37,827 nucleotides of DNA from the NCBI GenBank assembly GCA_028866905.1, contig JAGWHI010000009.1, positions 1 through 37,827 on the forward strand, in the 5' to 3' direction. This DNA is from Microcaldota archaeon (GTDB taxonomy: Archaea; Micrarchaeota; Micrarchaeia; Micrarchaeales; Micrarchaeaceae). Below the pieces are notes generated by a model. It saw only the letters and a list, made by a program, of their open reading frames with translations, was not told where the DNA came from and ran no database searches. Made by a program: the position numbers and the translations under genes. Positions 13,420 to 37,827 of the stretch are shown here, piece by piece. Every line of letters begins with the position of its first letter. Positions within the stretch are counted from its first letter, which is position 1.

Positions 13420-14808
13420 CTAGTCGTAGCTCGGCAGCTCGAGCTTTCCCTTACCGTGGGTCTCCGCCTCTACAAGGTACTTGTAGTGGGCCGAGTACCT
13501 GTTGTCGAACCGCCTGTAGCAGAGCTCGCCTATCAGCACCTCGGTTATGACCATGCTGGAGAATTCCGCGCCCTCGGACACCTGCTTCAGGTGCTCCACC
13601 AGCCGGTCCACGCTCTCGCCGCTGTACAGGGGGGCTATCCTTACGCTGCCGTCCGGATCCCATATGTCTATTATGAGCGAGAAGGTGTTGGTCGGATGCG
13701 GGCCGTACGATATGGTGTCGCGCCTCCAGTCCGCCTGCCTCTTGTTGAACCTGTCGAGATTGACCCTTTCCATGACGATCACGGCGTCCTGCCTGACAGG
13801 CACGCCCTTCATGTTGATTGTCACGCGCCTTAGCATGCCGTTGTCCAGGAGCTTGTGGTATACGTACTGGGACCTTCCCTTCGGGAACCCGTACTTCGCG
13901 TCTATCAGCGAGAGCTGCCTCGAGCCGTCGGCGCTGAGCTCCTTGAGCACAGCGTAATCGCTGTACAGCAGGCTGCCCGGCTTGGGCCTCGGGCTCTCCT
14001 TCGTCCTTCGCCATACCTTTTCCTCGAGCATCTTGAAGAACTCGTCGCGCAGCGGTATGTATCCGTAAGCGGTGTGCGCGAACTTTATCTTCCATTCTGC
14101 GGAGTACTTCACGAACACGCTGGAGCGTATCTGCCTGAACCTCTCGTTGGTCACCTGCAGGTCGTTCTCGGTCAGTATGTAGATTATTAGGTCGTAGTCC
14201 CCCTTCAGTATAGCGCAGAGCTGCACCATTGGCATGCCCTTCAGCGCCTCCCTTATCTCGTCAGGGCTTGGCTGCCTGTCCCTGAACTTTATCAGTATTA
14301 CGAACTCGAGATAGCCGAGCTTGTTGACGTCGGCCTCGGCAAGGTACCTTATCCCGTACCTCTGCTCCGCCTTCCTTATCTGGTATTCCGTAGCCGTGCG
14401 CTTGAGCCCTATCCTGTCGGCTATGGTGTTCCTTGATATCCTTCCGTTCATGCTCAGGTTCATCAGTATCCTGTCGTCGTATTCGCCCATACCTTCCTCG
14501 GAAGAGGGCGCCATGTGCAATCCCTCGAGCTTTGTGAGAGCCTCCTCCCGCGCTATCGCCTGGGCTATCTGTTTCTGCGTGGGCTGCCTGTGCCTTACCG
14601 GTATGAGTATGCCCTCCTCGGTTATCCTGCCGAGGTATTTGGTTATCTTCCTGGATCGCCCGAGGCCGCGGTCGTACCTGCTCGTAGCCTCAAACAGGCA
14701 GTACCTCCCCTTTATCAGCTTGACCTCGAGGTAGGTGTTGTACTCGCGCTTCAGAACCTCCAGCGCGGCCGAAACGCGCTCCGGAAGCCTGCCCCTTGCC
14801 GTCGCCAT
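13420..14808 (-). CDS. Large Lrp/AsnC-like transcription regulator with duplicated modules
   Basis: A 462-residue putative DNA-binding regulator. Residues about 1-70 contain the pattern KGRYCLFEATSRYD.. RKITKYLGRITEEG, which resembles the N-terminal motif of some DDE transposases. Residues about 110-165 form an AsnC-type winged helix (DDRILMNLSMNGRISRNTIADRIGLKR), followed by a RAM-like ligand domain (YLEFVILIKF, AILKGDYDLIIYILT). A second winged helix (about 285-340, YAVLKELSADGSRQLSLIDAKYG) and a second RAM-like domain (TFSLIIDIWD, SSMVITEVLIG) follow. Most Lrp proteins are 150-170 residues, so this looks like an internal duplication. A strong TATA box sits upstream. Targets are unknown. 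Confidence 0.75.
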   Translation of the reverse strand: MATARGRLPERVSAALEVLKREYNTYLEVKLIKGRYCLFEATSRYDRGLGRSRKITKYLGRITEEGILIPVRHRQPTQKQIAQAIAREEALTKLEGLHMAPSSEEGMGEYDDRILMNLSMNGRISRNTIADRIGLKRTATEYQIRKAEQRYGIRYLAEADVNKLGYLEFVILIKFRDRQPSPDEIREALKGMPMVQLCAILKGDYDLIIYILTENDLQVTNERFRQIRSSVFVKYSAEWKIKFAHTAYGYIPLRDEFFKMLEEKVWRRTKESPRPKPGSLLYSDYAVLKELSADGSRQLSLIDAKYGFPKGRSQYVYHKLLDNGMLRRVTINMKGVPVRQDAVIVMERVNLDRFNKRQADWRRDTISYGPHPTNTFSLIIDIWDPDGSVRIAPLYSGESVDRLVEHLKQVSEGAEFSSMVITEVLIGELCYRRFDNRYSAHYKYLVEAETHGKGKLELPSYD

Positions 14809-14825
14809 CGGTAGAATTAGATGGG

Positions 14826-14837
14826 TTTATATATAAA
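14826..14837 (-). promoter_or_regulatory. TATA box of the large Lrp-like regulator
   Basis: TTTATATATAAA is a near-perfect archaeal TATA box centred about 23 nt upstream of the ATG at 14808, predicting a leaderless transcript. The spacer from here to 14990 is AT-rich with no further recognisable feature. Confidence 0.65.
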
Positions 14838-14990
14838 TATATTTCTATCAGGCCATTTTATGGCAATTTATTTGTCGTCGGAGTAGATGGGTAGAAATTC
14901 CAGGATTTCCAGATAAATAGAGCTAATATGGCAGTCATATGTTATTATTCCTCTAAGTGCTAGCGGTTTTTGAGGTTTACATGAGATATG

Positions 14991-15000
14991 TTTAAATATA
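14991..15000 (+). promoter_or_regulatory. TATA box of the structured RNA / mini-ORF transcript
   Basis: TTTAAATATA is centred 26-27 nt upstream of G15022, where the first strand of a long helix begins. This spacing is ideal for transcription starting at the helix base. Confidence 0.6.
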
Positions 15001-15021
15001 AGGTATCCCATAATATACTTC

Positions 15022-15125
15022 GGTGGAGATTAAATGGATAAGACTCTGTCTGTCCATCTGTTTGTAAAACCAACCACACACCTAATTCTCCACCAAACCC
15101 ACCCAGCAAGGGGTCATCCCCTTGC
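15022..15125 (+). ncRNA. Candidate structured RNA or riboswitch-like leader
   Basis: GGTGGAGATTA (15022-15032) pairs with TAATTCTCCACC (15083-15094), leaving one bulge. Inside are a hairpin ATGGA(ta)AGAC-tct-GTCT(g)TCCAT (about 15034-15057) and a short GTTT-gta-AAAC hairpin, together a three-way junction of 73 nt. Twelve nt later comes a perfect 8-bp hairpin GCAAGGGG-tcat-CCCCTTGC (15106-15125). A TATA box lies about 26 nt before the first G. It has tRNA-like length but no T-arm or anticodon arm, and it matches no RNA class I recognise (tRNA, 5S, SRP, RNase P). It could stand alone or be the leader of the two mini-ORFs that follow. Confidence 0.5.
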
Positions 15126-15152
15126 ATTATGTTCAAACCTTAGCGTGAGCTG

Positions 15153-15236
15153 ATGCTTGCAGAGATAATACTCAGGATTTTCAGGGACATCGATGCCGTC
15201 AGGATCGTGCCCCACTATGGCGATAAGAAGAAGTGA
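15153..15236 (+). CDS. Mini-ORF, 27 residues
   Basis: ATG 15153 to TGA 15234-15236 encodes MLAEIILRIFRDID..VRIVPHYGDKKK, an amphipathic helix with a basic end. A GTGAG element lies 3 nt upstream. Its stop region supplies an AGTGA Shine-Dalgarno-like element to the next mini-ORF, which suggests a translated pair. It lies downstream of the structured RNA. No homologue is recognised and it may not be translated. Confidence 0.3.
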   Translation: MLAEIILRIFRDIDAVRIVPHYGDKKK

Positions 15237-15240
15237 CAAT

Positions 15241-15366
15241 ATGGGATTCTGGTCGATTTTCCAGGTGGGCAGGCGGAAGTCAAGCGTTGACGAGACAAGG
15301 CCGGTTAAGATGGTGAAGGACGGCCATCTCTCTTGGAGGATAGTCTACGCTGACGAGATCGCCTGA
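15241..15366 (+). CDS. Mini-ORF, 41 residues
   Basis: ATG 15241 to TGA 15364-15366. The product starts MGFWSIFQVGRRKSS and ends DGHLSWRIVYADEIA, with an aromatic hydrophobic N-terminus, a basic centre and a beta-like end. An AGTGA element overlapping the previous stop is spaced 4 nt from the ATG. It ends 5 nt before the convergent helicase gene. Protein-like composition and tight packing favour a real small gene, but no family is recognised. Confidence 0.4.
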   Translation: MGFWSIFQVGRRKSSVDETRPVKMVKDGHLSWRIVYADEIA

Positions 15367-15371
15367 ACCTA

Positions 15372-16934
15372 TCAGAAAAGTATCTGCTGGCCCGCAGCCT
15401 TTGCAGGCCTTGAGCTGAACCTGCCGGATTCTATGTCGCGCTTGAGTTTGTATACGAGCTCGCGCATCTTGTTCTCCCTCGCCCTTGATATGACGAGGTA
15501 GATCTCGTCCTTTGTGTCCCTCGCTACGAGTATGAAAATCTCGCCGAAGCGCATTCGGCCTGCGCGCCCGCCGCGCTGTATGTTGCGTATCTCGTTAGGC
15601 ACAGGCTCGTAGAATACCACAGTGTCGACGCTGGGTATGTCAAGCCCCTCCTCGCCGATCGAGGTCGCGACGAGCACGCGGAACTTCCCGTCTCGGAATT
15701 CGTTTATGACGCCCTCCTGCTGCTCGTGGGTGACGCCCTCCTTCTTGCCCACGAACGCCCTTGCGGTTATCCCGTGCGCGCGGAGCATCTCCACTATGCG
15801 CTTTATCGTTGACCTGTACTGCGCGAAGACTATCGTGGAGCTGCCCGGCTGCGACTTCAGTATGCGGATCAGCTCCATCACCTTCGGGTGCTCTACGCCC
15901 TCGTTTATCGCGTTGGCCGCGGCGGCTGTAGCGCGGACCACCTCCGGGTTGGAGAGCAGGCTCGTCACGCTCTTGCTCTTCTTGGGACGCGCGCGCAGCC
16001 CGTCCATGTAGCTGATGAACGGGTAAAGCCCCTCGCTGGCAGCGAGGTCGTACGCGTGCAGCAGGTTTAGCACGTAGATGTAGTGGTACAGCGCCCCGAA
16101 CTTGTAGTTCTGCGCCTGTATCTTGCTGATGTTGTCGCCTATCTGGAGGAGCCTGCCCTTCGGCACGTTGTCTATGCCCTTGAACGGGCTGAGGCCCAGG
16201 CCATAGAGCTTGGTCAGGTGCAGCTCGATTACGGGCTTGATAGCGGCCATGACCTCGCGTATGACGGGGCCGGTGTCCACCCTGACCACGTGCACGTACT
16301 TGCCCATCACGTACGGGACCACATCCGGGTCGGTGGAGGTGCGTATTTCGATGTTCTCGATTCCAAGAGCCGTTGCAAGGGCCTCGATCCGCTTCCTGTT
16401 GCTCCCTGGCGATGCCGTAAGGCCTATCATCTGTACGTTCTCCTCGTTTGCAGTGTCGGCCAGGAAGGTGTACGCGTATCGCCCCACCGCCCTGTGGCAC
16501 TCGTCGAATATTATGACCCCGAAGTCGTTGATGGAGAGCCTGCCTGACTTTATGTCGTTGGCAAGGGTCTGCGGAGTCGCAGCGATCACCCTCGCCCCGG
16601 ACACCAGCCCCTGCCTCTTGGCGGCGCCTATGCTCCCCGTCAGCAGCAGAACGCCTTCGGAATCTATGTTGAGCAGCTTCGACATCGACTGGTAGTGCTG
16701 CTCGCTGAGCGGCTTTGTCGGCGCCAGTATCGCGGCCTTCTTTCCCTCGGAGAGCGCCTTCGCAGCTGCAAAAACCGCTATGAGCGTTTTTCCCAGGCCT
16801 GTGGGCAGCACAACTAGCGAGTTCTTCCCGGAGTAGACGCTCCTTATAATGTTGATCTGGTAGTCCCTGGGCTCGATGATATCCGTTCTTACGATTCCGT
16901 TGTAGGGCGCGAGCGCGTCCCAGGACAAGGCCAT
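15372..16934 (-). CDS. Hef/FANCM-type superfamily 2 DNA helicase without nuclease domain
   Basis: A 520-residue SF2 helicase resembling the helicase half of archaeal Hef, which acts on stalled forks. Motifs visible: I PTGLGKT, Ia APTKPLSEQH, II DECH, III LTASPG, V ATSIGEEGLDIP and VI QRGGRAGRM. A helical thumb-like insertion lies between the two RecA domains (about residues 225-345). The XPF-like nuclease and HhH region of full Hef is absent; the protein ends shortly after motif VI with a short tail GQQILF that only partly resembles a PCNA-binding motif. A TATA element about 26 nt upstream of the ATG predicts leaderless transcription. A separate nuclease partner may exist elsewhere. Confidence 0.9.
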   Translation of the reverse strand: MALSWDALAPYNGIVRTDIIEPRDYQINIIRSVYSGKNSLVVLPTGLGKTLIAVFAAAKALSEGKKAAILAPTKPLSEQHYQSMSKLLNIDSEGVLLLTGSIGAAKRQGLVSGARVIAATPQTLANDIKSGRLSINDFGVIIFDECHRAVGRYAYTFLADTANEENVQMIGLTASPGSNRKRIEALATALGIENIEIRTSTDPDVVPYVMGKYVHVVRVDTGPVIREVMAAIKPVIELHLTKLYGLGLSPFKGIDNVPKGRLLQIGDNISKIQAQNYKFGALYHYIYVLNLLHAYDLAASEGLYPFISYMDGLRARPKKSKSVTSLLSNPEVVRATAAAANAINEGVEHPKVMELIRILKSQPGSSTIVFAQYRSTIKRIVEMLRAHGITARAFVGKKEGVTHEQQEGVINEFRDGKFRVLVATSIGEEGLDIPSVDTVVFYEPVPNEIRNIQRGGRAGRMRFGEIFILVARDTKDEIYLVISRARENKMRELVYKLKRDIESGRFSSRPAKAAGQQILF

Positions 16935-28705: not shown

Positions 28706-28823
28706 TGGAGGAGGCGGGATTTGAACCCGCGACCTCTAGATTTCTTAGTCATAGCACACGGCTCATCACTCATAATGCTTTGCTTATGAGTCTAGCGCTC
28801 TAACCAGGCTGAGCTACCCCTCC
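28706..28823 (-). tRNA. tRNA with CAT anticodon (elongator Met or Ile2), intron-containing
   Basis: The 75-nt mature tRNA has acceptor GGAGGGG/CTCCTCC, D-stem GCTC/GAGC, anticodon stem CTAGA/TCTAG, T-arm GCGGG-TTCAAAT-CCCGC and discriminator A. Removing 43 nt (28784-28742) between positions 37 and 38 gives loop CTCATAA with anticodon CAT. The anticodon stem lacks the G-C triplets of initiators, so this is elongator Met or Ile2. The anticodon loop pairs over 8 bp with the intron (ACTCATAA with TTATGAGT), and no regular bulge-helix-bulge was found. A TATA-like element ATAATAAATG lies just upstream, within the end of the preceding gene. Confidence 0.88.
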
Positions 28824-29469: not shown

Positions 29470-29572
29470 TGCGATTGCCGGGATTTGAACCCGGGTCGTT
29501 GGCTGTCCTCTCCCCCTGTTTTTCAAAGGAAGAATGGAAGGCCAAAGTCCTACCAGGCTAGACTACAATCGC
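29470..29572 (-). tRNA. tRNA-Gly (TCC) with 30-nt intron
   Basis: The 73-nt mature tRNA has acceptor GCGATTG/CAATCGC, D-stem GTCT/GGAC, anticodon stem TTGGC/GCCAA, T-arm CCGGG-TTCAAAT-CCCGG and discriminator A. The intron is 29534-29505, between positions 37 and 38; splicing gives loop CTTCCAA, anticodon TCC. It forms a textbook bulge-helix-bulge: 5' bulge CA^T, central helix CTTC/GAGG, 3' bulge AC^A, and an intron stem TCTTCC/GGGGGA. A TATA element CCTTAAAAGC (29600-29609, minus strand) is correctly spaced. Confidence 0.96.
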
Positions 29573-37603: not shown

Positions 37604-37792
37604 TCAATGTTTCTTGTAAGTGTAATGGCTGATCAGTTCGCCGCAATTGCTTCCTGCGACCTTCGAAAGCCATTGCCGTACGTTTCCGCTCTGCCCGTCA
37701 GAATGAAACCTTGCCTTAACAAGAAATCCGCATATTCCCTCTGTAACATGGATTTCCTCTATGTCCCCCAACCCCATAATTCTCATCGCCAT
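37604..37792 (-). CDS. Small unknown protein, 62 residues
   Basis: A 62-residue protein with an acidic first half (GLGDIEEIHVTEGICGFLVKA) and a basic second half (HSDGQSGNVRQWLSKVAG, ending HYTYKKH). No family is recognised. Another ATG six nt downstream (MRIMG) is possible. Its promoter lies at or beyond the window edge, where the remaining 35 nt show nothing clear. Confidence 0.6.
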   Translation of the reverse strand: MAMRIMGLGDIEEIHVTEGICGFLVKARFHSDGQSGNVRQWLSKVAGSNCGELISHYTYKKH

Positions 37793-37827
37793 ACTGTTTA
37801 TGTCATAGTTTTCCCTTGGCTTTACTA

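Follow-up and report, generated by a model that had tools for sequence, protein, structure and literature searches.

What is encoded in the non-coding gap at positions 14809–15371 of this Micrarchaeota contig? The window, by which we mean the whole stretch of 37,827 nucleotides that was analysed, corresponds to contig C7 of a genome of 885,590 bases in 31 contigs, and the gap within it is flanked by a minus-strand gene for a 462-residue protein and by a helicase gene (15372–16934, minus strand) whose product is 63% identical to a homologue of an uncultured Candidatus Micrarchaeota archaeon, a match that makes a Micrarchaeota host probable. An initial annotation had read the gap as a promoter, a three-way-junction RNA and two mini-ORFs, and had proposed either a stand-alone non-coding RNA or a sensing leader for small proteins. 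Little is known of structured regulatory RNAs in DPANN archaea.

A predicted folded RNA behind an archaeal promoter

The annotated promoter is present, with the TATA-like sequence TTTAAATATAA at 14991–15001, about 28 nt upstream of 15022, and a transcript start is predicted near 15020. The RNA that follows (15022–15094) measures 73 nt and is closed by a helix in which 15022–15029 pairs with 15087–15094 (GGUGGAGA/UCUCCACC); length and helix are as annotated, and the 11 bp originally given are reached only with a bulged U allowed. Compared with dinucleotide shuffles, the fold has z = −4.9 (15015–15140) or −5.9 (15010–15130), with none of 200 shuffles as stable, and in these models the closing helix, one inner hairpin and the terminal hairpin, the perfect 8-bp stem of the annotation (GCAAGGGG/CCCCUUGC, 15106–15125), are robust predictions. 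Of the two internal hairpins proposed, the one at 15034–15057 was recovered; the second, at 15059–15076, is weak, missing from the centroid fold and without support in a second copy of the element described below, and the three-way junction is therefore not established. Both mini-ORFs, of 27 and 41 codons, lie where they were described (15153–15236 and 15241–15366), and a 39-codon ORF running through the RNA itself (15034–15153), hereafter the uORF, had been overlooked (Table 1).

Table 1 Features of the element in the window.
Feature	Position	Strand	Basis or remark
Archaeal promoter core GATATGTTTAAATATAAG (TATA box)	14985–15002	+	18 nt identical in the C24 copy
CATAAT-like element immediately ahead of the predicted start of transcription	15009–15014	+	Kept in C24; YATAAT/CGTAAT in most leaders
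Closing helix, 5′ strand; uORF Shine-Dalgarno site	15022–15029	+	Folds
Closing helix, 3′ strand (anti-Shine-Dalgarno)	15087–15094	+	Folds, pair counts
Inner hairpin	15034–15057	+	Fold shared by the two copies, with one compensatory A-U to U-A difference
C/A-rich unpaired stretch ACCAACCACACACCUAAUU	15069–15087	+	Identical in C24; counterpart (variant) of the CCCACCC loop motif
Terminal 8-bp hairpin GCAAGGGG-UCAU-CCCCUUGC	15106–15125	+	Stem invariant in C24, loop differs
uORF, 39 codons (MDKTLSVHLFVKPTTHLILHQTHPARGHPLALCSNLSVS)	15034–15153	+	TGA stop overlaps the following ATG
Mini-ORF 1, 27 codons (MLAEIILRIFRDIDAVRIVPHYGDKKK)	15153–15236	+	No Pfam match
Mini-ORF 2, ADE-family small protein, 41 aa	15241–15366	+	Own-genome paralogue and profile matches

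The annotation had assigned the RNA to no recognised class, and our searches agree: Rfam 15 returned only tRNAs from the window at the gathering threshold and no family for this RNA, and ten related loci searched at E ≤ 5 gave one chance-level match, far below its threshold. Rfam and ARAGORN likewise gave no match to H/ACA or C/D guide RNAs or to tRNA variants, whose characteristic boxes, checked by eye only, were not seen. A tRNA-like or permuted tRNA, an idea prompted by the 73-nt size and the CUCCACC-A end, was rejected after ARAGORN and Rfam produced no match.

A second copy of the element lies in the same genome at C24:28443–28579 on the minus strand, 82% identical and including the 18 identical bases of the promoter. 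Comparison of the two copies over 26 pairs shows 22 kept or changed compatibly on one side, one compensatory change (A-U to U-A) and three broken, so that on balance the paired bases do not change without compensation, the pattern that the initial annotation had named as speaking against the structure. The terminal hairpin follows the closing helix in both copies. Behind the C24 copy there are no 27- or 41-codon ORFs; it lacks the ATG of the uORF, with a TTG possible in the same frame, and runs into the 3′ end of a gene that, from its sequence, we take to be YyaL-like. A covariance model built from the two copies (R1), run against the family, found only these copies and nothing in the other 84 genomes. 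Weak similarity between the two copies, above 500 shuffles, continues for about 190 bp beyond the promoter on its upstream side, between L002 (1640–1800, minus strand) and the window at 14815–14985 (TAGATGGGTTTAT, GATGGGTAGA).

Putative leaders of one plan ahead of small-protein operons

Mini-ORF 2 has a paralogue in the same genome, on contig C18, and belongs to a family of proteins of about 40 residues, with a consensus close to RPVKVV..GENSWQIVYADE, that we call ADE after its usual last residues. The ADE profile matches in 26 of the 85 genomes of the archaeal family, up to five times per genome, and changes among the homologues fall at codon positions 1/2/3 in the proportion 71/70/226 (668 codons), a strong third-position excess. 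Mini-ORF 2 is thus a real conserved gene. The other small protein proposed in the annotation fared differently, as we found neither a homologue nor a Pfam match for mini-ORF 1. The idea that it is a truncated RAM domain was rejected, its score against the RAM profile being −1 bit where shuffles reach 6.9.

ADE genes are accompanied elsewhere by genes for Lrp-type RAM-domain proteins, one of which (from locus L027) matches PF01037 with 28.2 bits against a cutoff of 25. Within the order the RAM family occurs in 127 of 164 genomes, the operon proteins match PF01037 without a helix-turn-helix (HTH) domain, and profile searches with them returned no solved structure at E ≤ 0.001. This genome carries RAM genes on C18, C9 and C25 and at the end of the window (37607–37825), while the window's own operon contains ADE and no RAM gene. 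In several other RAM operons the first gene is not ADE: a small CWMC zinc-finger-like protein comes first at L116–L118, L125 and L114, and a one-helix membrane-like peptide takes the place of ADE at L119 and L123.

Upstream of ADE genes and their accompanying RAM genes, in either order (ADE-RAM or RAM-ADE), we find RNAs of the same plan and of different sequence. A TATA box and a CATAAT-like element come first; the G-rich 5′ strand of a helix then begins where the transcript is predicted to start, followed in many by an inner hairpin and then by a C-rich loop motif and the helix's C-rich 3′ strand. We recognise this architecture across roughly a dozen of the family's genera. Most leaders are preceded by A/T-rich TATA-like and CATAAT-like stretches comparable to those of the window, and in most the G-rich strand stands 4–12 nt ahead of an ATG; the leaders ahead of the C18 and C25 RAM genes are 81% related to each other. 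The terminal hairpin, at the position it has in the window, is not general. The proposal of a leader for small proteins is thus well supported, since the same architecture heads homologous operons, and these comparisons suggest that an undescribed RNA heads small-protein operons in many Micrarchaeota; the open-access literature, outside which most subscription journals lie, gave no description of this leader RNA.

Among 24 non-redundant leaders, 21 have a closing helix that no more than 2 of 40 shuffles equalled, while CCCACC or CCACCC occurred in the loop of 14 (1.0 expected) and was missing from 10; the boundaries of these leaders were trimmed by eye, a bias reduced by an untrimmed repeat and a model search. 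In the repeat, a helix enclosing one of the two motifs (score ≥ 18) was found in 19 of 31 untrimmed 300-nt upstream regions, taken from loci of the discovery set, versus 1 of 64 control genes. Covariance model R2, built from a single genus-level group (group A), retrieved leaders in genus g26 that head RAM operons with an ADE-like first gene. Formal covariation within close groups appears weak: there are no two-sided changes in group A and one between the window and C24, the closing helices of L023 and L040 differ by one G-C to A-U change read from the sequences. RNAalifold found no consensus in a mixed second group. Some leaders (L029, L039, C24) have weaker helices. The case for the structure therefore leans mainly on distant leaders that would pair with different sequences. 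Separately, the interval from leader to ADE contains, in several genera (L029, L030, L032, L037, L041, L042), a second G+C-rich hairpin such as GGTGCGCACC-GCATC-GGTGCGCATCC, which follows an AAACCC-type stretch.

These comparisons bear on the other possibility raised in the annotation, a stand-alone small RNA gene whose helix protects the ends and which shares only a promoter with the nearby ORFs; such an RNA could act on other mRNAs, its C-rich loop pairing with their Shine-Dalgarno sites of GGUGG type, or in a complex with RAM or ADE. The promoter-bearing C24 copy, with no ADE/RAM operon behind it, would be explained in this way, as would the terminal hairpin that follows the helix in both copies and the complementarity of the loop motif to GGUGGG. 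At other loci, however, an ADE or RAM start comes directly after the RNA, the strong R2 matches whose downstream sequence was examined head RAM operons, and the frame through the RNA stays open until it terminates at the next start. We therefore regard a stand-alone RNA as unlikely, with the near-identical C24 copy as what still speaks for it.

An open frame without a conserved peptide

The uORF begins behind a Shine-Dalgarno site that is itself the 5′ strand of the closing helix (15022–15029), and its stop overlaps the start of mini-ORF 1 in the sequence TGATG (15151–15155), with an ATGA overlap in the C18 copy. Across 25 non-redundant loci this frame is open over a median of 40 codons versus 10 and 16 in the other two frames (Wilcoxon p about 0.003 for each of the two comparisons), and its stop mostly falls −17 to +33 nt from the next start.

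The peptide shows a different pattern. In 14 pairs of related leaders, which share sequences and are thus not fully independent, changes at uORF codon positions 1/2/3 number 60/47/44 in 536 codons, compared with 68/51/380 in 1117 codons for the RAM genes of the same loci. The leaders have changed at about 9% of sites versus 34% at third positions of the genes behind them, that is, 3–4 times more slowly. As the leader is slow-changing and lacks codon periodicity, selection acts on the nucleotides of the RNA and not on the peptide, and by these counts the frame is kept open without the peptide being kept. A uORF encoding a conserved peptide was rejected for its lack of codon periodicity. Leader-peptide attenuators are marked by conserved regulatory codons or a conserved peptide, and we found no codon-level conservation of this kind.

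The uORF might still be a real gene for a leader peptide or micro-protein, the helix arising only incidentally from a G-rich Shine-Dalgarno site and pyrimidine-rich coding sequence. A frame open well past the other two would be expected of such a gene, and the peptides of group A are similar to one another with a one-codon indel; but the 18 synonymous and 98 non-synonymous codon changes give no third-position excess, the rate of change is far below that of the third positions of adjacent genes, and from locus to locus the loop motif falls in each of the three frames, with Pro, Thr and His codons arising. On this evidence we consider a peptide gene quite improbable.

A predicted translational switch and its neighbourhood

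The reading that we favour, with a probability of roughly 0.58, is a cis-acting structured 5′ leader that would serve as a translational switch of a small-protein operon by hiding the Shine-Dalgarno site of a uORF to which the downstream genes are coupled. Transcripts starting at about 15020 would fold at their 5′ end into the long helix, in which the 5′ strand is the Shine-Dalgarno site and the 3′ strand lies inside the uORF, so that the closed helix would block ribosome entry. Opening of the helix would allow translation of the uORF, with termination at or next to the following start (TGATG in the window) and re-initiation on the following ORF, and operon output would then track the state of the helix. 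A structure hiding a ribosome-binding site is the mark of a translational riboswitch and is found here computationally; overlapping or adjacent stop and start codons are that of archaeal translational coupling (TeRe) and are found here as well.

The C-rich loop motif (CCCACCC family) could pair with the same Shine-Dalgarno strand and so create a two-state switch. Its predicted pairing with the uORF site (−4.8 to −16 kcal/mol) is more consistent than with downstream sites, and for this reason a two-state RNA fits. The motif as an anti-Shine-Dalgarno for downstream genes was rejected, as this pairing is inconsistent across loci and mostly weaker than that with the uORF's own site. The trigger would most plausibly be feedback by the encoded RAM or ADE proteins or their amino-acid ligand: a review of stand-alone RAM proteins reports that they bind amino acids and calls their role unclear (PMC2995911), and that binding makes RAM or ligand feedback the most economical choice. 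In the full version of this model, a previously undescribed ligand- or protein-responsive switch of Micrarchaeota would mask, in its helix, the Shine-Dalgarno site of a uORF that is itself not conserved, and would pass ribosomes on to RAM proteins that are stand-alone amino-acid sensors; this version we advance only tentatively and at less than even odds.

In the ppe2 B12 riboswitch of Mycobacterium tuberculosis, downstream expression requires uORF translation, with termination-reinitiation at a tight stop/start overlap (PMC11260477). The ppe2 and metE riboswitches share with the Micrarchaeota leader a structured 5′ leader containing a short translated uORF, predicted in our case, but differ in RNA, host and genes; the Micrarchaeota leader matches no aptamer family, and has its uORF Shine-Dalgarno site built into the closing helix, right at the 5′ end (PMC11260477). 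Termination-reinitiation is also established in archaea, where consecutive ORFs overlap in TGATG or ATGA as the uORF and mini-ORF 1 do, although those are pairs of protein genes and here a structured leader with an unconserved peptide comes first (PMC6728339). The downstream operon proteins, matching PF01037 without HTH, resemble stand-alone archaeal RAM (Lrp/AsnC) proteins such as DM1 of P. horikoshii, from which they are divergent, and a structured leader RNA is absent from the passages of that review that were consulted (PMC2995911). If correct, the model would describe an archaeal counterpart of uORF-coupled riboswitches, present several times in genomes of about 1 Mb or less. Heading several operons per genome, the leader would define a regulon of stand-alone RAM proteins and offer a direct handle on what these proteins sense and on uORF-coupled Shine-Dalgarno sequestration in archaea.

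The neighbourhood of the leader suggests a further explanation. Divergently from the RNA runs the gene for the 462-residue protein (13420–14808, minus strand), the first half of which gives weak matches to AsnC-type HTH and RAM and which is possibly a regulator of the ADE operon. The inverted repeat could then be constrained as DNA, as an operator for an Lrp-type regulator such as this protein, consistent with RAM proteins and an Lrp-like gene as neighbours and with constraint at the nucleotide level. However, the arms lie 50–100 nt apart, vary in sequence between loci yet stay complementary, are downstream of the predicted start and include, in register, a Shine-Dalgarno site and a start codon, and the operon RAM proteins lack HTH; we consider a DNA operator very unlikely. 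A duplicated repeat or mobile-element end is suggested by the presence in one genome of two 82%-identical copies, whose weak similarity continues for about 190 bp upstream. We consider it highly improbable, since neither in the window nor at C24 did we recognise a transposase or integrase at the copy, and homologues keep one operon context across genera. A viral or mobile origin was also rejected: no viral contig matched, and the only three phage matches, of 42 nt (E = 0.04), are at chance level.

Two minor observations concern the rest of the window. The RAM gene at its end, which scores 81 bits against the RAM profile at 37604–37825 (minus strand), is cut by the contig end, and as the RAM genes of C9 and C25 likewise sit near contig ends, repeated sequence around RAM loci is suggested. 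Rfam also detected two minus-strand tRNA genes that ARAGORN missed, at 28706–28823 and 29470–29572; at 118 and 103 nt, they probably contain introns.
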